Shown one piece after another: positions 22,779-52,396 of a DNA stretch of 64,000 nucleotides (position 1 is its first letter; every line of letters starts with the position of its first letter). The position numbers were made by a program, and so were the translations under genes. The DNA lies in assembly GCF_006265115.1 (NCBI RefSeq), contig NZ_SMDR01000001.1:1178001-1242000 (forward strand), read 5' to 3'. The DNA comes from Arenimonas terrae. Lineage in GTDB: Bacteria > Pseudomonadota > Gammaproteobacteria > Xanthomonadales > Xanthomonadaceae. A model generated the notes under the pieces. That model was given only the letters and a program-made list of their open reading frames with translations. It made no database searches and was not told the DNA's origin.

Positions 22779-24884
22779 ATGACCCCGCGCCTGAAGCCGC
22801 TCGCCCTCGCCCTTTCGATCACCGTCGCCCTGGCCGCCTGCCAGAAACCGGCCGAGGCGCCCGCGGACACCGCCGCCGCCGCCGAACCGCCCAAGCTCAC
22901 GATCGACCTGGCCAAGGTCGCCCAGCAGCCGATCTCGCTGCAGGCCGCCGACCTCGACCCGTCCATCGCTGCCTGCCAGGACTTCAACGGCTTCGTGAAC
23001 GCGAAATGGCTCGCTGCCAACCCGGTGCCGGGCGACCGCACCACCTGGGGCGCCTTCGCGGCGCTGGGCGAGCGTTCGCTGCAGGTCCAGCACGAGCTGG
23101 CCAAGGCCGCGGCCGCCGGCACCTGGGCCGCCGGCACGATGGAACAGAAGGTCGGCGACTTCTTCGCCGCCGGCATGGACGAGGCCAAGATCGAGGCCGC
23201 CGGCATCACGCCGATCCAGCCCGACCTGGACCGCATCGCCGCGCTCACCGCCACCTCCGAGATCCCCGCCTACCTCGGCGAGGCCTACGCCAAGGGCCAG
23301 GGCATGCTGTTCGGCTTCTTCGCGATGGCCGACTACAACGACTCGAACACCAACATGGCCTACGCCATCCAGGGCGGCCTGTCCCTGCCCGAGCGCGCCT
23401 ACTACCTGGAAGACCGCGAGGACTACAAGACCGCGCGCGCCGCCTTCCTCGAACACGTGGCCAAGGTGCTGACGCTCGCCGGCGCCGATGCCGAAACCGC
23501 CAAGGCGCAGGCGCAGCAGGTCATGGATTTCGAGACCCGCCTGGCCAAGGCCTCGCTGGGCCGACTCGAGCTGCGCGACCCGGCCAGCCGCTACAACCCG
23601 GTCGCGCTGGCCGACGCCGACGCCAGCACGCCGAACTTCAGCTGGACCGCCTTCTTCGCCGCGCTCGACGTCGAGGCGCCCAAGACCTTCTCGCTGGCCA
23701 CGCCGGGCTTCTTCAAGGAATTCGACGCGATGCTGGCCGATGTGCCGCTGGAGCAGTGGCAGACCTGGCTGCGCTTCCGCACGATCGACGGCGCCTCGCC
23801 CTACCTCAGCAGCGCCTTCGAGCAGGCCAACTACGAGTTCTACCGCAAGACGCTGGCCGGCCAGGCGCAGATGCAGGAGCGCTGGAAGCGCGTGCTCGGC
23901 GCGCTGAACGGCTCGATGGGCGAAGGTTTCGGCCAGATCTACGTCGCCCAGGCCTTCCCGCCCGAATCCAAGGCCAAGATGGAAGCCCTGGTGCAGAACC
24001 TGATGGCTTCGCTCAAGGGCCGGCTGGAGAACCTGGAGTGGATGAGCGCCGAGACCAAGGCCAAGGCGCTCGAGAAGTGGTCCAGCTTCACGCCCAAGAT
24101 CGGCTACCCGGACAAGTGGCGCGACTGGAGCGGCCTGTCGGTGGCGCGCGACAGCTACGCCGCCAACCTGATGGCCGCCGCCGCCTTCAACATGCGCTAC
24201 AACCTCGACAAGATCGGCAAGCCGGTGGACCGCAGCGAATGGGGCATGAGCCCGCAGACGGTGAACGCCTATTACCGTTCCACCGCCAACGAGATCGTGT
24301 TCCCGGCCGCGATCCTGCAGCCGCCGTTCTTCGACGCCAATGCCGACGACGCGCTCAACTACGGCGGCATCGGCGCGGTGATCGGCCACGAGATGCTGCA
24401 CGGCTTCGACGACCAGGGCAGCAAGTTCGACGCCGCCGGCAACATGGCCAACTGGTGGACCGACGCCGACCGCGCCAAGTTCGAGGCCGCGACCACCAAG
24501 CTCGCGGACCAGTACAGCGGTTACGAGGCGCTGCCGGGGCTGTTCGTCAACGGCAAGCTGGGCCTGGGCGAGAACATCGCCGACCTCGGCGGCGTCACGG
24601 TCGCCTACGACGCGCTGAAGAAGGCGCAGGGCGAGAACTTCTCCGACCCGATGATCGACGGGTACACGCAGGACCAGCGCTTCTTCATGAACTGGGCGAC
24701 GGTGTGGCGCGTGGCCTTCACCGAGGCGCAGCTCAAGCAGCAGATCACGGTCGGCCCGCATTCGCCGGGCATGTTCCGGGCGGTCGGCCCGGCGCAGAAC
24801 CTGCCGGCCTTCGCCGCCGCCTTCCAGTGCAAGGCCGGCGACAAGATGGTCCGCTCCGAAAACGACCGCGTCGTCATCTGGTAA
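22779..24884 (+). CDS. M13-family zinc metallopeptidase lipoprotein, copy 1
   Basis: A 701-residue neprilysin/PepO-type endopeptidase. The start at 22779 gives a lipoprotein signal ending LAAC-QKP, so it should be anchored in the envelope. The zinc site is intact: HEMLH at 537-541 within VIGHEMLHGFDDQG, the third ligand in GENIADLGG, and NAYY plus the invariant C-terminal region FQCKAGDKMV and VVIW. The N-terminal domain carries the FVNAKWLAANPVP pattern of M13. It is the first of three tandem paralogues and is followed by an intrinsic terminator. M13 enzymes cleave short peptides; the natural substrate is not known. Confidence 0.93.
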   Translation: MTPRLKPLALALSITVALAACQKPAEAPADTAAAAEPPKLTIDLAKVAQQPISLQAADLDPSIAACQDFNGFVNAKWLAANPVPGDRTTWGAFAALGERSLQVQHELAKAAAAGTWAAGTMEQKVGDFFAAGMDEAKIEAAGITPIQPDLDRIAALTATSEIPAYLGEAYAKGQGMLFGFFAMADYNDSNTNMAYAIQGGLSLPERAYYLEDREDYKTARAAFLEHVAKVLTLAGADAETAKAQAQQVMDFETRLAKASLGRLELRDPASRYNPVALADADASTPNFSWTAFFAALDVEAPKTFSLATPGFFKEFDAMLADVPLEQWQTWLRFRTIDGASPYLSSAFEQANYEFYRKTLAGQAQMQERWKRVLGALNGSMGEGFGQIYVAQAFPPESKAKMEALVQNLMASLKGRLENLEWMSAETKAKALEKWSSFTPKIGYPDKWRDWSGLSVARDSYAANLMAAAAFNMRYNLDKIGKPVDRSEWGMSPQTVNAYYRSTANEIVFPAAILQPPFFDANADDALNYGGIGAVIGHEMLHGFDDQGSKFDAAGNMANWWTDADRAKFEAATTKLADQYSGYEALPGLFVNGKLGLGENIADLGGVTVAYDALKKAQGENFSDPMIDGYTQDQRFFMNWATVWRVAFTEAQLKQQITVGPHSPGMFRAVGPAQNLPAFAAAFQCKAGDKMVRSENDRVVIW

Positions 24885-24900
24885 TCCCGCGCGTTTCTCA

Positions 24901-24930
24901 CCCCGGGCAGTCCGCTGCCCGGGGTTTTCT
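24901..24930 (+). terminator. intrinsic terminator after M13 copy 1
   Basis: A 10-bp perfect stem CCCCGGGCAG / CTGCCCGGGG with a TCCG loop is followed by TTTTCTTTT. Confidence 0.88.
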
Positions 24931-25000
24931 TTTACCCCCGGCCGCGTGCTCCGCAAGTAGATCAAGTGCTCGCGGGCGGTTGATCCGGCGTGCGCCGTCC

Positions 25001-25395
25001 CGCATCGCTATAGTCCCCTGCCCGCTCAGTCGGCGCGGCGTCCTGCCCACCGATTCGCGGCCGCTACGGCATCCTGCCTTCGCTTCAGGGGACTATAGCG
25101 ATGCGTGCCGTCGCCACGACTCTTCCTCGCGGGCCGATGGGACAAGCGCGTGCCCCCAAAAGGCACGAAGGCTCGTCGCCGGAACAACCGGTCTCGCCAA
25201 CAGGCCAGGACACCCGATGCTGCCTTTAGATCGAAACCCCGGCCCGGACGGTCCGGAGGCCGTCGTGCGAGGGTCATTTTCCGGGGCATCGAAAACACGG
25301 ACGTTTTCGATGAGCCTCCATGGATGGATTCACGGCGTCCCCGGGAAATGACCCTCGTGCGGCGGCCTGTCGCCAAGCACGATCCCGGCGCCACC
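25001..25395 (+). repeat. structured intergenic element, copy A
   Basis: It contains two large hairpins. Hairpin 1 has perfect 20-bp arms (25001-25020 and 25086-25105) around a 65-base spacer. Hairpin 2 has 19-bp outer arms (25268-25286 and 25339-25357, one G-T wobble) enclosing a nested perfect 10-bp hairpin, CATCGAAAAC / GTTTTCGATG (25287-25312). The region after hairpin 1 aligns in blocks with the reverse complement of 51282-51723. It has no credible gene, although an open frame runs across it. It separates M13 copies 1 and 2. Confidence 0.8.
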
Positions 25396-25519
25396 AAGGT
25401 GAGGGGTGACCTTCGACCTATGCCGGGTCCCGGCGAAGGGTCCAGAATCAGCCGCCCGCCGCGCTGCCGACGGCCGATCCCACCTTTCCGAACGCGCCCC
25501 GCGGCGCCTGGAGCCATAC

Positions 25520-27616
25520 GTGACCCTTCGCTCGATCAAACCCCTGACCCTGGCCCTCGCGGTCACCGTCGCCCTCGCCGCCTGCCAGAAGACCGAGGCC
25601 CCGGCCGAAACCGCCGCCGCGCCGGAACCCGCCAAGCCCCTGGTCGACCTGGCTGCGCTCAAGACCCCGATCATCTCCTTCCAGGCCGCCGACCTCGACA
25701 CCAGCATCGCCGCCTGCACCGACCTCAACGGCTTCGTCAACGGCAAGTGGCTGGCCGCCAACCCGGTGCCGGCCGACCGCACCACCTGGGGCAGCTTCGA
25801 ACTGCTGGCCGAACGTTCGCTCGAGATCCAGCAGAAACTGGTCGAGAACCTGGCCGCGCAGACCGACGCCACCGGCACCGCCAAGCTCATCGGCGACGTC
25901 TGGGCCACCGGCATGGACGAGGCCGCGATCAATGCCGCCGGCCTGACCCCGATCCAGCCGATCCTGGACGAGATCGCCGCCGTCGACTCCCCGGAAGCCA
26001 TCGCCGGCCTGCTGCGCAGCAGCTACGCCAAGGGCCAGGGCTACGTCTTCGGCTTCGGCCCGAGCCCGGACTTCAAGAACTCCACCGTCAACATCGCCTA
26101 CGCCGGCCAGGCCGGCCTGGGCCTGCCGGACCGCGGTTACTACTTCGACGAGAAGCATGCCTCGGTGCGCGAAGCCTATGTCGCCCACATCGGCAACATC
26201 CTCAAGCTCGCCGGCGCCGACGACGCCACCGCCGCCGCGCTGGCCAAGGACGTGATGGCCTTCGAGACCCGCCTGGCCAAGGTCTCGATGTCCAGCGAGG
26301 AGCTCTCGCGCGACGTGTCCAAGTACTACAACCCGGTCTCGGTCGCCGACGCCGACGCCCTGACCCCGAACTTCAAGTGGTCGGCCTTCTTCGAATCGCA
26401 GGGCCTGGCCGCGCCGGAGATGTTCTCGCTGGCCCAGCCGGACTTCCACAAGGAAGTGAACGCGATGCTGGCCGACGTGCCGGTCGCCACCTGGCAGGCC
26501 TACCTGCGCTACCAGACCATCGACAATGCCGCGCCCTTCCTGGCCGATGCGTTCGCGCAGGAAAACTTCAACTTCTACGGCAAGACCCTGCGCGGCCAGC
26601 AGGAAATGCAGCCGCGCTGGAAGCGCGTGCTCAACACCATCAACAACCAGATGGGCGAGGCTCTGGGCCAGGAATACGTCGAGGTGGCGTTCTCGCCGGA
26701 AGCCAAGGCGCGCATGCAGACCCTGGTCGGCAACCTCGGCGAAGCCCTGAAGGCGCGCATCGAGGCGCTGGACTGGATGGGCGCCGACACCAAGGCCAAG
26801 GCCCTGGAGAAGTGGGCGGCCTTCACGCCGAAGATCGGCTACCCGGACAAGTGGCGCGACTGGAGCGGCCTGAGCACGGCCCGCGACAGCTATATCGCCA
26901 ACCTGATGGCCACCAGCGAGTTCAACTACAAGTTCAATCTCGCCAAGATCGGCCAGCCGGTGGACAAGACCGAATGGGGCATGAGCCCGCAGACGGTGAA
27001 CGCGTACTACAACCCGCTGGCCAACGAGATCGTGTTCCCGGCCGCGATCCTGCAGCCGCCGTTCTTCGACGCCAACGCCGACGACGCGCTCAACTACGGC
27101 GGCATCGGCGCCGTGATCGGCCACGAGATGATCCACGGCTACGACGACCAGGGCAGCCGTTTCGACGCCAAGGGCAACTTCGAGAACTGGTGGAGCGACG
27201 AGGACATGAGCGGCTTCAAGGCGCGCACCGACAAGCTGGTGGCGCAGTTCGACGCCTACGAGTCCATCGACGGCCTGCACGTGAACGGCAAGCTGACCCT
27301 GGGCGAGAACATCGCCGACCTGGGCGGCCTGGCCGTGGCCTACGACGCCCTGCAGCGCGAGCTGCAGAACAAGCGCGTCGCCGAAATCGACGGCTACAGC
27401 CCGGACCAGCGCTTCTTCATGAACTGGGCCACCGTCTGGCGCCGCAACTTCAAACCCGAAGAGCTGAAGGTGCGCCTGGAAACCGACCCGCACGCGCCGG
27501 CCAACTTCCGCGCCATCGGTGCGCCGTCGAACCTGCCGACCTTCGCCGCCGCGTTCGGCTGCAAGGCCGGCGACGCGATGGTCCGGGCCGACGACGCCAA
27601 GGTCGCGATCTGGTAA
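25520..27616 (+). CDS. M13-family zinc metallopeptidase lipoprotein, copy 2
   Basis: A 698-residue paralogue of copy 1 with the same layout: GTG start at 25520 (CTGGAG just upstream), lipobox LAAC-QKT, intact HEMIH at 535-539, GENIADLGGLAV and the terminal FGCKAGDAMV plus VAIW. Upstream in-frame ATG codons would add a long tail not seen in copy 1, and the GTG aligns exactly with the copy 1 start. Blocks of the two genes are nearly identical at DNA level around the active site, pointing to recent duplication or gene conversion. It ends in a strong terminator. Confidence 0.93.
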   Translation: MTLRSIKPLTLALAVTVALAACQKTEAPAETAAAPEPAKPLVDLAALKTPIISFQAADLDTSIAACTDLNGFVNGKWLAANPVPADRTTWGSFELLAERSLEIQQKLVENLAAQTDATGTAKLIGDVWATGMDEAAINAAGLTPIQPILDEIAAVDSPEAIAGLLRSSYAKGQGYVFGFGPSPDFKNSTVNIAYAGQAGLGLPDRGYYFDEKHASVREAYVAHIGNILKLAGADDATAAALAKDVMAFETRLAKVSMSSEELSRDVSKYYNPVSVADADALTPNFKWSAFFESQGLAAPEMFSLAQPDFHKEVNAMLADVPVATWQAYLRYQTIDNAAPFLADAFAQENFNFYGKTLRGQQEMQPRWKRVLNTINNQMGEALGQEYVEVAFSPEAKARMQTLVGNLGEALKARIEALDWMGADTKAKALEKWAAFTPKIGYPDKWRDWSGLSTARDSYIANLMATSEFNYKFNLAKIGQPVDKTEWGMSPQTVNAYYNPLANEIVFPAAILQPPFFDANADDALNYGGIGAVIGHEMIHGYDDQGSRFDAKGNFENWWSDEDMSGFKARTDKLVAQFDAYESIDGLHVNGKLTLGENIADLGGLAVAYDALQRELQNKRVAEIDGYSPDQRFFMNWATVWRRNFKPEELKVRLETDPHAPANFRAIGAPSNLPTFAAAFGCKAGDAMVRADDAKVAIW

Positions 27617-27641
27617 GTCCCCGCCGCCACGCGGCTGAAGG

Positions 27642-27672
27642 AACGGCCCGGCTTGTCCGGGCCGTTTTTTTT
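27642..27672 (+). terminator. intrinsic terminator after M13 copy 2
   Basis: A 10-bp perfect stem AACGGCCCGG / CCGGGCCGTT with a CTTGT loop is followed directly by a run of T. Confidence 0.9.
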
Positions 27673-27694
27673 GGGGCGGGCGGGGGCGGGGCGT

Positions 27695-27700
27695 TAGAAT
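27695..27700 (+). promoter_or_regulatory. minus-10 box of the third M13 gene
   Basis: TAGAAT lies 25 bases before the ATG at 27726. TGGAG at 27715-27719 is the ribosome binding site and favours that ATG over the one four codons upstream. Confidence 0.5.
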
Positions 27701-27725
27701 CCCCTCCCCCCTCGTGGAGCCAACG

Positions 27726-29630
27726 ATGTCCTCCCGCCCGAAGCCCCTGCTCGCCCCCCTGCTCGGCAGCCTGCTGCTGACCCTGGCCGCCGCCCCGGTG
27801 GCCGCCCAGCGCGCCCCGGCCGTCCCCCAGGCCTGCGCCGACTTCTATTCCCACACCAATGCCGCCTGGCTGCGGGCCAACCCGCTGCCGGCCAATGCCG
27901 ACCACTTCAGCCGCTGGGACCAGCTGATCGCCCTGGGCCGGACCCAGCGCGACCAGGTGCTGGCCGCGACCACGGCCCCGGCCGGCGCCACGGTGTCGGT
28001 GCGCCTGGCCGACCTGTTCGCCAGCGCCGAGAACGAGGCCGCGATCGAAGCCGCCGGCCTGCGCCCGATCGAGCCGCTGCTGGCCATCGTCAACCGGATC
28101 AAGCGCACGAAGGACGTCGCCAAGGCCGTCGCCAGCCTGCATGCGGCCGGCATGCCGGTGCTGGTGGACCTGCAGGTGCTGCGCGACAACACCGGCAAGC
28201 CCTATGCCCAGGTCGGCCCGGCCGGCATGGGCCTGCCCGACCCGGGCTTCTACGCCAGCACCGACCCGCTGGTGCAGCCGGTCGAGCAGAAGTACCAGGC
28301 CGCGGTGTCCGAGTGGCTGCGCCTGACCGGCACGCCGGCGAACAAGCTGGCGGCGGAAACCGCCGCGGTGCTGCAGATCGAGCGCGACCTCGCGAAATCC
28401 GTGCTGGCCGCCGCGCCGTTCCAGGTGATGGCTGCCAAGGACGCGGCCAAGGTGGCCGGCGCGCTCGACCTCGACGGCGTGCTCACCGCCCACGGCCTCA
28501 AGGCCAGCCAGGTCGCGATGACCGGCCCCGGCTTCTTCCAGGCCGTGAACCAGCACCTGGCCAAGACCAAGCCCGAGCTGTGGCGGGCCTATCTGCGTGC
28601 GCAGATCGCCCGCGACATGGCCCCGACCCTGGGCAAGGCCTTCCATGGTCCCTGGGCCGACCTGTACGAAGTGACGCTGGCCGGCCAGCCCGCGCCGACC
28701 TCGCGCGCCATCCGCGCGCGCCAGGTGCTGGAAGCGCGCGTGCCGGAGTTCCTGGACGCGGCCTACACCCAGCGCTTCCTGCCGGTGCCGCGCCAGCAGC
28801 GCGCGCAGGCGATCGCCACGGCCGTGAAGGCCAGCGCGCTCGCCGCCGTCGACCGTGCGGCCTGGCTCAGCGCCGAGGGCAAGGCCGGTGCCCGCCAGCG
28901 CCTGGAGGCGATGCAGGTGCAGGTCGGCAGCGAAGTGCCGGACAACGTCTTCGACGATCTGCGCTTCTCGCGCGACGACCTCGCCGGCAACGTGCTCAAC
29001 CTGCGCCGCTGGCTGATGAAGTACGCGCTGGTGCGCGCCCGCTTCGCCTGGCCGGCCGAACAGTGGCAGCCGCTGGTGGTCTGGCTGCCGCAGGAGAACC
29101 GCCTGCTGGTCACCGCCGCCACCCTGCAGCCGCCGCTGCTCGACGATGGCGGCAGCGCGGCCGACTTCGGCGGTCTCGGTGCGCTGGTCGGCCAGCAGAT
29201 GAGTCTGGCCCTGCAGACCTGGAGCGGCGCCGACGCCGCCGCCTGGAACGCGCGCACGCAGCCGCTGGTTGCGCAGTACAACGTCTATTCCGCCACCGGC
29301 GGCGCGACCCGCGTGAACGGCACCCGCAGCTTCGCCCAGAACCAGGCCGACCTGGCCGGGCTGGAGCTGGCCTGGGGCGCGCTCAACGCCGGCGGCGCGC
29401 CGGATGCCAACGCTTCCAAGGCCTTCTTCACTGGCTGGGCCACGCTGTGGGCGCGCCAGGACAAGGCGACCGCGCTGGCCGCGGCGCAGGCGACTGCCGA
29501 CCACGCGCCGTCGAAGTGGCGGGTGAACGGCCCGCTCGCCAACCTGCCCGCCTTCGGCCAGGCCTTCGGCTGCCGCGCCGGCAGCGCGATGCAGCGCCCG
29601 GCCAAGCAGCAGGTCGCCCTGTGGCGTTGA
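27726..29630 (+). CDS. M13-family pseudopeptidase (zinc site lost), copy 3
   Basis: A 634-residue secreted M13 paralogue. Signal peptide about 1-27 (cleavage after AAPVAA), not a lipoprotein. The fold is recognisable: FYSHTNAAWLRANPLP, LPDPGFY, the NLPAFGQAFGCRAGSAM end and the VALW terminus. The catalytic motif GHExxH is replaced by G489-Q-Q-M-S-L, so both zinc histidines and the glutamate are gone, and the third-ligand motif ENIADLGG is QNQADLAG. It should not bind catalytic zinc. The reading frame is intact and codon use is normal, so it looks like a maintained non-enzymatic protein rather than a decaying gene. rapA begins two bases after its stop. Confidence 0.88.
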   Translation: MSSRPKPLLAPLLGSLLLTLAAAPVAAQRAPAVPQACADFYSHTNAAWLRANPLPANADHFSRWDQLIALGRTQRDQVLAATTAPAGATVSVRLADLFASAENEAAIEAAGLRPIEPLLAIVNRIKRTKDVAKAVASLHAAGMPVLVDLQVLRDNTGKPYAQVGPAGMGLPDPGFYASTDPLVQPVEQKYQAAVSEWLRLTGTPANKLAAETAAVLQIERDLAKSVLAAAPFQVMAAKDAAKVAGALDLDGVLTAHGLKASQVAMTGPGFFQAVNQHLAKTKPELWRAYLRAQIARDMAPTLGKAFHGPWADLYEVTLAGQPAPTSRAIRARQVLEARVPEFLDAAYTQRFLPVPRQQRAQAIATAVKASALAAVDRAAWLSAEGKAGARQRLEAMQVQVGSEVPDNVFDDLRFSRDDLAGNVLNLRRWLMKYALVRARFAWPAEQWQPLVVWLPQENRLLVTAATLQPPLLDDGGSAADFGGLGALVGQQMSLALQTWSGADAAAWNARTQPLVAQYNVYSATGGATRVNGTRSFAQNQADLAGLELAWGALNAGGAPDANASKAFFTGWATLWARQDKATALAAAQATADHAPSKWRVNGPLANLPAFGQAFGCRAGSAMQRPAKQQVALWR

Positions 29631-49007: not shown

Positions 49008-51249
<2,242 letters not shown>

Positions 51250-51281
51250 GTTTTTCGCGTCGTATTGAGCTTCGGGGTAGT

Positions 51282-51723
51282 TCCTGGTGCCGGGATCGTT
51301 CCTGGCGATAGGCCGCCGTACGTGAGGTCTTTTTCCGGGGACGCCGTGAATCCATCCATGGAGGCTCTTCGAAAACGTCCATGTTTTCGAAGCCCCGGAA
51401 AAAGCCCTCACGCACGACGGCCCGCGGACCATCCGGGCCGGGATATCGAATTGGAGACGCTCGCTTTAGCGAAGCCTTCGGCAATTTCGCCTTCGACTTG
51501 CGGCTCGCCCGGATCTGTCCTCGAAGCCGATTCCATCCAATCTGCGAGCTTCCGCGCCCTCTGGGGGCACGCGCTTATCCCAACGGCTCGCGATACCGAG
51601 TCGTGGCGACGACGTAGACAGGGGGGTATGGCTGAAGTGGAGGGCAGGAAGCCCGCAACGGCCGGTCGTAAGCTGGTCATGGATGACGCTCGCGCGCGAC
51701 CGGGCAGCCATACCCCACTGTCT
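51282..51723 (-). repeat. structured intergenic element, copy B (inverted relative to copy A)
   Basis: Reverse-complement relative of 25001-25395. Hairpin 1 has 18-base arms (51616-51633 / 51706-51723, 17 of 18 pairing) around 72 bases. Hairpin 2 has 20-bp outer arms (51321-51340 / 51393-51412, one wobble) enclosing a perfect 10-bp hairpin, CTTCGAAAAC / GTTTTCGAAG (51367-51392). The shared 28-base block with CCATGGATGGATTCACGG is identical in both copies. The middle part (about 51440-51560) is longer than in copy A. It fills the gap between tgt and the response regulator; no gene is evident there. Confidence 0.8.
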
Positions 51724-51793
51724 GCGGCGGCGCACGCCAGATCAATCGCCCGCGAGAACTTGATCTTCTTGCGCGACGCGCAAGCGCGGAGGG

Positions 51794-52396
51794 TTAGAGC
51801 CAGCCCTTGGCGCGCGCCGTGCGATAGGCCTCGATGCGGTTGGCGGCGCCCAGCTTGCCGATGGCTTCGGAAAGATAGTTGCGCACCGTGCCCTGCGACA
51901 GATGCAGACGCTCGGCGATCTCGGCGCTCTTGACGCCCTCGCCGGCCAGACGCAGCACCTGACGCTCGCGCTCGGTGAGCGGATCGTCCTCGCCCCAGGC
52001 GGCGACGGCCAACTGCGGATCGATCGCCCGGCCGCCGGCCTGCACCTGGCGCAGCGCCTGCGCCAACTGCGCCGAGGGCGCGTCCTTGAGCAGATAGCCG
52101 CGCACGCCGGCGTCGAGCGCGCGGCGCAGATAGCCGGCGCGCGCGAACGTGGTGAGGATGACCACACGCGTCGCCAGTCCGGATTCCTGCACCTTCAGCG
52201 CCAGGTCCAGGCCGGTGAGCGCGGGCATCTCGATGTCGGTGACCAGCAGGTCGGGGCGGTGCTCGTTCACCGCGCGCCAGGCTGCCTCGCCGTCGCCGGC
52301 CTCGGCCACGACCTCGAGGTCCGTTTCCAGGCGCAGCAGCGCGGCCAGCGCGCCGCGCACCATCGCCTGGTCCTCGGCCAGCACCAGGCGGATCAT
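51794..52396 (-). CDS. NarL/LuxR-type response regulator (DesR-like)
   Basis: A 200-residue response regulator. Receiver domain with acidic pocket (LAEDQ), phospho-acceptor D54 in LLVTDIEMPALTG, conserved Thr in VVILTTF and Lys in LLKDAPS; C-terminal LuxR helix-turn-helix (LTERERQVLRLAGEGVKSAEIAERLHLSQGTVRNYLSEA). Its ATG overlaps the stop of the sensor kinase gene by four bases. It probably controls the ABC exporter operon of which it is the last gene. Confidence 0.93.
   Translation of the reverse strand: MIRLVLAEDQAMVRGALAALLRLETDLEVVAEAGDGEAAWRAVNEHRPDLLVTDIEMPALTGLDLALKVQESGLATRVVILTTFARAGYLRRALDAGVRGYLLKDAPSAQLAQALRQVQAGGRAIDPQLAVAAWGEDDPLTERERQVLRLAGEGVKSAEIAERLHLSQGTVRNYLSEAIGKLGAANRIEAYRTARAKGWL

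Follow-up and report, generated by a model that had tools for sequence, protein, structure and literature searches.

Elements A (about 24951..25395, plus strand) and B (about 51285..51776, minus strand) of the window, that is, the whole stretch of 64,000 nucleotides of Arenimonas terrae DNA analysed here, are on balance probably MITE-like elements that carry bivalent decoy RNAs for RsmA/CsrA. In the mechanism that we propose, a non-autonomous mobile element would be composed of a pair of structured RNA modules, placed on opposite strands and directed outward. In each of them an outer stem would hold two short hairpins whose A(N)GGAN loops are of the kind targeted by the dimeric CsrA/RsmA protein, and a sense transcript across a module would present a bivalent RsmA site. 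Reading an outward pair from either side would yield one sense module, so the orientation of an insertion would be irrelevant. The transcripts would most likely act as dispersed RsmA/CsrA decoys, or else the element's own RNA would be tied to RsmA; this reading presumes transcription in this organism, binding by RsmA and an effect as a decoy. For the wider family the balance is about even that mobile DNA throughout Gammaproteobacteria carries bivalent CsrA/RsmA decoys, forming a dispersed and evolvable sponge that was built at least twice (types 1 and 2) and often as outward pairs; alternatively, CsrA may control the element's own RNA and its spread.

Structure of elements A and B

A preliminary description of the window had reported two copies of a structured element, at 25001-25395 and, inverted, at 51282-51723. 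Both copies are real: they can be aligned with each other end to end, and as single strands they fold far more stably than shuffled sequences (z = -7.22 and -7.19 for A and B, respectively; none of 100 dinucleotide shuffles was equally low). Their extent had been underestimated, as the elements reach approximately 24951-25395 and 51285-51776. According to our gene calls, no gene overlaps A or B and no transposase lies between the predicted genes adjoining them, in agreement with the earlier description.

Element A comprises a type-1 module, a middle part, a type-2 module and a 3' unit, as delimited by the alignment of 21 full copies; its left end motif, a hairpin end followed by AGATC...TGCTCG (24951..24972, plus strand), was located by pattern search. 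The type-1 module (hairpin 1; 24993..25112, minus strand) was defined from alignment A4, covariance model R2 (19 modules) and the minus-strand wobble cells, and consists of an outer stem and two mini-hairpins with GGA pentaloops. These loops, identified from the sequence and the loop count, are AGGAC (25040..25044) and AGGAT (25071..25075), both on the minus strand. The long arms and spacer described for hairpin 1 proved correct, the spacer measuring 65 nt (A) and 70 nt (B). The type-2 module (hairpin 2; 25255..25372, plus strand; 125.9 bits with covariance model R1, alignment A2) has a YPAL/Ysr224-like core, with the P2 loop ACGGAC at 25297..25302 and the P3 loop ATGGAT at 25320..25325, both on the plus strand. 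The nested 10-bp hairpin noted previously in hairpin 2 is present, and that picture was incomplete in that a second mini-hairpin, CCATGGATGG, turns the module into a three-way junction.

Element B has the same architecture, inverted in the window, according to the alignments. Its type-1 module (51608..51732), for which the plus strand would be the RNA sense, carries the loops AGGAA (51646..51650, from sequence and loop count) and ATGGAT (51679..51684) on the plus strand, the latter a hexaloop versus the pentaloop AGGAN of other copies. Its type-2 module (51307..51424, minus strand; 137.4 bits with R1) carries the P2 loop ATGGAC (51377..51382) and the P3 loop ATGGAT (51354..51359) on the minus strand, and the end motif was found by pattern search at 51753..51774 (minus strand).

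Outside element A, the peptidase gene upstream has a terminator-like structure (24900..24932, plus strand), a G+C-rich hairpin followed by TTTTCTTTT, which gave weak matches to terminator parts of several Rfam families (search of 24900-25500, E up to 10). On the other side of element A is a conserved sequence that precedes the next gene. A run of three similar peptidase-like genes, which we take to be of the M13 type, occupies 22779-29630 of the window on the plus strand. The 3' part of tgt and a response-regulator gene are neighbours across element B (window 49091-52396), and in many relatives of the genus the two stand in an inverted relation a few kb apart; this gene order points to a local inversion that had one of its junctions at element B.

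Copies in the genome

With copy A as the query, a DNA search of the genome (3,314,558 bases, 7 contigs) matched 55 pieces. The family was counted from 33 sequence stretches, with the weak matches L037-L041 left out, and comprises 35 hairpin-2 (type-2) modules at 30 loci: 21 full type-1/type-2 elements (A, B and 19 others), 5 type-2 pairs and 4 solo copies of hairpin 2. Covariance model R1 returned the same 35 places on the better strand, and the other 30 of its 65 rows were opposite-strand echoes. All 30 loci examined (28 others, A and B) were intergenic according to a home-made gene caller based on codon usage. The preliminary description had proposed a search with covariance models and regarded a lack of further copies, or uncompensated stems, as grounds for abandoning the idea; further copies with compensated stems were found in the genome and in relatives.

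The elements are about 440-490 bp long and contain two different modules in a common order: an end hairpin (e.g. CTTGCGC..GCGCAAG) and then TAGGTCnnnTGCTCG, hairpin 1, a variable middle, hairpin 2 and at least one 3' unit of the CGGCGGCCTATCGCCaGGAACGATCCCGGCACC type. TAG or CAG comes directly after the end hairpin, an inverted end motif stands at the right end in several copies, and all 27 matches to the end motif in the genome (0-2 mismatches) are located at elements. Three parts make up hairpin 2: P1, the long outer stem; P2, an inner hairpin with a hexaloop; and P3, the hairpin GCC-UCC-AUGGAU-GGA-UUCAC-GGC. Hairpin 1, read on the other strand, has an outer stem around two hairpins of the type GGGC-AGGAU-GCCC, and at L018, L022, L023 and L031 an extra segment inserted in the type-1 module adds GGA-loop hairpins (GGACAGGAGTCC, GGGCAGGATGCCC).

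Covariation and strand asymmetry

The compensated stem changes first noted between A and B extend through the family. Double changes occur at 29 of 39 pairs on 31 hairpin-2 modules of the genome and at 36 of 39 pairs in alignment A3, which holds 113 distinct gammaproteobacterial rows. In A3, 94.5% of cells are paired versus 58.8% after shuffling, and the covariation score is 0.720 versus 0.155 shuffled and at most 0.094 slid, figures that lean towards the model structure to which the alignment was fitted; its rows come from 78 of at least 118 loci, and 4 of them are opposite-strand echoes. For type 1 (19 rows, MAFFT), 97.5% of cells are paired, 23 of 39 pairs show double changes and the score is 0.497 versus 0.163 shuffled, with the structure predicted from the same 19 rows.

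The residual mismatches differ between the strands. On the plus strand of the type-2 modules in the genome, G.T cells outnumber A.C cells by 55 to 5 (inner and outer stems), with 32 of the 53 outer G.T cells in two columns. For type 1 the plus-strand count is 1 G.T versus 21 A.C (1 versus 20 on recount), equivalent to G.U on the minus strand, and this count is thin, as 14 of 20 A.C cells lie in one column and the ratio elsewhere is 6 to 1. Copies within one genome share descent, so these counts are not independent, and the wide gammaproteobacterial set is for that reason the better strand test. In that set, which covers type 2 and treats all non-Watson-Crick cells alike, 87 outer stems contain 112 G.T versus 16 A.C cells, and 59 versus 11 when one stem is kept per distinct arm (56 arms); per module, 51 have more G.T, 6 have more A.C and 30 are equal (sign test, 6e-10). 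Type-2 modules are constrained on one strand. Hairpins 1 and 2 appear to be constrained on opposite strands, and from their sequences the modules appear to face outward, type 1 leftward and type 2 rightward, the strand of type 1 being indicated mainly by its loops.

Selection on the arms and copying between them had both been offered to account for the paired changes. A structured repeat family under selection on pairing is supported; copying alone is insufficient, because the residual mismatches are strand-asymmetric and the loop letters are kept while the stems change. Template switching in palindromes is a familiar idea, and some hairpin-1 stems are almost wholly different between copies and still paired, as functionless palindromes kept perfect by switching between arms would be. 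The same asymmetry and loop conservation, together with the outward pairing of the modules, count against that explanation and make it very improbable.

GGA loops and CsrA/RsmA

In the 21 full elements, A(N)GGAN hairpin loops are confined to one strand of each module: for type 1, 46 on the minus strand versus 0 on the plus (shuffle averages 1.6 and 0.2), and for type 2, 41 on the plus strand versus 0 on the minus (shuffle averages 1.7 and 1.1). The middle parts hold 15 more GGA loops, every one of them on the plus strand. Type-1 modules carry two loops in 17 elements and three in 4 elements, and type-2 modules carry two in 20 elements and one in a single element, so that each element has multiple A(N)GGA(N) loop motifs, as in sRNAs that sequester CsrA/RsmA.

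The P2 loops provided a fair test of loop conservation, since P2 had been left out of the scan pattern. Among the matches listed, 126 distinct pattern hits comprised 92 with an ANGGAN hexaloop, 10 with an AGGAN pentaloop, 10 with another GGA loop, 3 with an inverted NTCCNT loop and 11 with none of these; the corresponding figure for random windows was 30 of 2520. Pentaloop binding has reportedly been observed for RsmE. All 92 hexaloops are closed by a stem of at least 4 pairs, the closing pair is C-G in 89, and the variable letters are T (63), G (25), A (3) and C (1) at N2 and T (79), C (7), G (4) and A (2) at N6. A diverged form in three genomes has a longer P3 stem (GGGCC-AGGGAT-GGCCC) and keeps both loops and UUC(A/G)CGGC, and weak relatives (L279-L282) have the same two loops. 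At L130 (about 885-1000), L165 and L215, the P2 hairpin looks inverted (loop ATCCCT/ATCCAT), possibly through recombination between the arms of an outward pair.

Judged by its letters, the A(N)GGAN loop matches the CsrA/RsmA target, for which a preference for 5'-RUACARGGAUGU-3' in hairpin loops is given in the available text of PMC7937890. The genome contains one csrA match. Across the class, csrA was matched in 59 of 63 motif-bearing genomes versus 254 of 306 others (Fisher p = 0.033), a marginal difference and weak evidence; three of the four motif-bearing genomes with no csrA match (G068, G128, G255 and G402) are under 90% complete. In P. putida, RsmA, RsmE and RsmI pull down intergenic RNAs beside ISPpu8 and a 'long palindromic region' (PMC7937890, in the part available), which is a lead only, the palindrome being at most a candidate type-2 module. 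RsmA still bound X. campestris RsmU with altered GGA motifs in vitro, according to the accessible part of PMC7694677, so binding may depend on more than the GGA motifs.

Distribution, pairing and gene context

The pattern scan of Gammaproteobacteria gave at least 118 loci with the type-2 motif. Its hosts, among the matches listed, include Xanthomonas, Stenotrophomonas, Luteimonas, Thermomonas, Halopseudomonas, Marinobacter, Rheinheimera, Alteromonas, Methylotuvimicrobium, Cellvibrionaceae, Sodalis, Yersinia similis and others. The motif was present in at least 20 of 61 relatives, at least 14 of 27 genomes of the same genus, at least 63 of 369 class genomes and at least 18 of 299 phylum genomes, with all positives in the same class or closer; for both module types, scans of more than 40 genomes are lower bounds, as they used stricter filters and scored few candidates per genome. 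Patchiness is seen even among genomes of the one genus. A wide family of type 1 was considered and rejected: under the strict filters, model R2 found this module in the Arenimonas terrae genome only among 369 class genomes, and among 49 loci examined it scored above 80 bits in G003, G026 and G021 only. Six more hits in these 49 loci scored 26-35 bits; of these, L052 (G021) occupies a separate place and another is an opposite-strand echo.

All 23 adjacent module pairs in the relatives' loci (gap of at most 300 nt) face outward, in 2-2, 1-2 and 1-1 combinations, one of them (L052) relying on a weak type-1 match of 28.6 bits. In a wider set of 28 adjacent pairs, 20 were outward, 4 inward (three in alternating arrays and one close pair) and 4 tandem. 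At L284 (350-1500), in a genome of the same class, tandem type-2 modules alternate with TTTTGTAGGAGCGGCTTCAGCCGCGATAAGCG-like REPs.

Gene context was counted for 102 pattern hits, the remainder of 137 distinct hits after 35 at contig or locus edges had been dropped. They lay in 45 convergent gaps, 7 divergent gaps and 50 gaps between tandem genes, and the background of 232 gaps of 150-900 bp comprised 51 convergent, 51 divergent and 130 tandem. Within the 50 tandem gaps, no strand preference was found (27 sense versus 23 antisense, p = 0.67). The scarcity of divergent gaps and the similar sense and antisense counts indicate that the elements avoid promoter regions and have no sense preference; the latter weakened the idea of modules as sense parts of 3' UTRs, which was set aside. 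Among the 21 full elements of the genome, 12 have a same-strand upstream gene and 15 a convergent downstream gene (counted by eye).

Intergenic hairpins that are rare in divergent gaps might also be mRNA-end structures that tune the stability of neighbouring transcripts by shielding them from RNases or promoting their cleavage, a role suggested for YPAL and ERIC, and the available text of PMC2229807 describes a possible influence of YPAL on the RNA stability of upstream transcripts. Stability of this kind does not need conserved GGA loops or the GCC..UUCACGGC core, tandem genes show no strand preference, and at locus A a terminator-like hairpin stands between the gene and the element; we regard this explanation as improbable. 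The decoy reading is itself challenged by the lack of strand bias in tandem gaps and by the Rfam annotation of Ysr224, which lies on the strand without the GGA loops, and at locus A the terminator-like hairpin before the element would be expected to limit read-through from the preceding gene.

Insertion polymorphism and mobility

Locus A is filled in G000 and G003, the insertion in G003 occupying the same position (84% identity across 1,691 bases of the query). It is empty in G023 and G010, which have the terminator and a short spacer only, and in G012, which has less still. In G026 it holds a different element, a pair of type-1 modules enclosed by two GTGCGC..GCGCAC hairpins, of which G023 has just one. 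Filled and empty sites, with insertion near dyad symmetry and duplication of the target, are the pattern expected of YPAL/RU-2; a duplicated hairpin-like target was seen at this locus in G026 only (L261), and element A shows no clean duplication. A plain REP doublet stands here in G019, whereas other palindromes follow the same peptidase gene in G020 and G021 (L259 and L260). The varied inserts indicate that this gap has been hit repeatedly, and the filled and empty sites indicate that the elements move, empty sites having been examined at locus A alone. The elements are MITE-like in being non-coding, multicopy and polymorphic for insertion, the polymorphism being that of this one locus.

Y1_Tnp genes occur in 44 of 61 relatives, and two are present in the genome studied. 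The preliminary description had suggested a linked RAYT gene, and this suggestion is not supported for the copies of this genome: the element end motif was not found at the flanks of either Y1_Tnp gene of the genome, one of which has GGGGTCAGAGTG ends of its own. At L084, a Y1_Tnp (RAYT-like) gene at about 1095-1990 has inverted ends GGGGTCAGAGTG..TTTATCTT, unlike the element ends. In some relatives, modules lie between inverted REPs of the TGTAGGAGC type, which flank some RAYT genes too; such REPs were near the gene on both sides at 3 of 29 transposase loci scanned (L107, L110 and L111).

The main competing view is that of a purely selfish MITE, whose hairpins and GGA loops would be recognised in single-stranded DNA by some transposase or recombinase, perhaps of the HUH type, with no role for CsrA. 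Mobility and the patchy distribution, both among relatives and at locus A, agree with this view, as does the proximity of some relatives' modules to REP and RAYT sequences. The excess of G.T over A.C, too, would follow from strand-specific recognition of DNA hairpins, which tells against the decoy reading, and YPAL is reported to be mobile with target duplications of 3-26 bp (PMC2229807, in the portion available). This view leaves unexplained why the loops fit the CsrA consensus while their other letters vary, and why type-1 and type-2 modules, otherwise dissimilar, have this loop in common; the Y1_Tnp loci of the genome, as noted, lack the element end motif. We consider a purely selfish MITE rather unlikely, though a more serious contender than mRNA-end hairpins.

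If the loops are RsmA/CsrA sites, as the decoy reading holds, a large and old family of 'junk' repeats would join the Csr/Rsm network, and mobile elements would be spreading the binding sites of a regulator at the RNA level. Genomes with tens of copies (here 35 type-2 and 21 type-1 modules) would own a dispersed and evolvable CsrA sponge, and RsmA buffering would become directly testable in bacteria such as Xanthomonas, reported to be without classical Csr sRNAs.

Comparison with known systems

The opposite strands, the GGA loops, the evidence of mobility and the kinship with YPAL/Ysr224 had all been overlooked in the preliminary description. A literature search joining YPAL and CsrA found no paper, and among the matches listed for repeats with CsrA/RsmA or for Xanthomonas MITE-like hairpins (titles and the starts of abstracts) the family was not described; the available parts of PMC8406273 and PMC12889724 held nothing useful on repeats. 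In the literature searched, we found no mention of the type-1 module or of the outward design with two modules, nor of a covarying family spanning the class or of the CsrA-loop reading.

The type-2 part is a relative of a known Yersinia element, the palindromic element YPAL/RU-2 (168 bp), to which Rfam Ysr224 (RF02770) corresponds. YPAL/RU-2 is likewise intergenic, dispersed and reported mobile, and the RU-2 sequence in the accessible part of PMC2759123 contains the type-2 core (GGA-loop hairpin, GAGCCTACATGGATGTATTTACGGCGTC and outer stem). A Yersinia similis copy (L167) carries this core and scores 126.5 bits for Ysr224 and 59.4 bits for R1 (E 3.8e-11). The Yersinia unit measures 167-168 bp, whereas the window elements reach about 440-490 bp and have a second, dissimilar type-1 module on the other strand; the Rfam model, moreover, is annotated on the strand that lacks the GGA loops. 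Copy A scores 17.9 bits for Ysr224, on the minus strand, against a gathering cut-off of 70 and is not a member by the Rfam rule; at the gathering threshold, Rfam gave no match in the whole window. Several Ysr224 copies are expressed, and differently so, in Y. ruckeri (available text of PMC12112432), and YPAL/Ysr224 ranks in the top 20 of annotated bacterial sRNAs by prevalence (PMC9029176, part available). The available text of PMC9029176 and of the other YPAL/Ysr224 sources states no molecular target for it.

REP/REPIN sequences with RAYT are also palindromic intergenic repeats that form inverted pairs, and REPs flank modules in some relatives. The REP unit is 20-40 nt long, tagged GTAG/CGTC and accompanied by RAYT, whereas the modules described here are about 120 nt long with conserved loops, and in this genome their end motif is not linked to a RAYT gene. 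The sRNAs that sequester RsmA/CsrA (CsrB/C, RsmX/Y/Z and Xanthomonas RsmU) present several GGA motifs in hairpin loops, as the elements do. Such sRNAs are further characterised by binding and antagonising CsrA/RsmA, by a promoter of their own and by expression under GacA/UvrY control. Xanthomonas genomes are reported to be without the classical Csr/Rsm sRNA families in the available part of PMC7694677. Where those regulators are encoded by one or a few sRNA genes, the present family consists of dispersed mobile repeats that are, by sequence only, candidate binders of the same protein.
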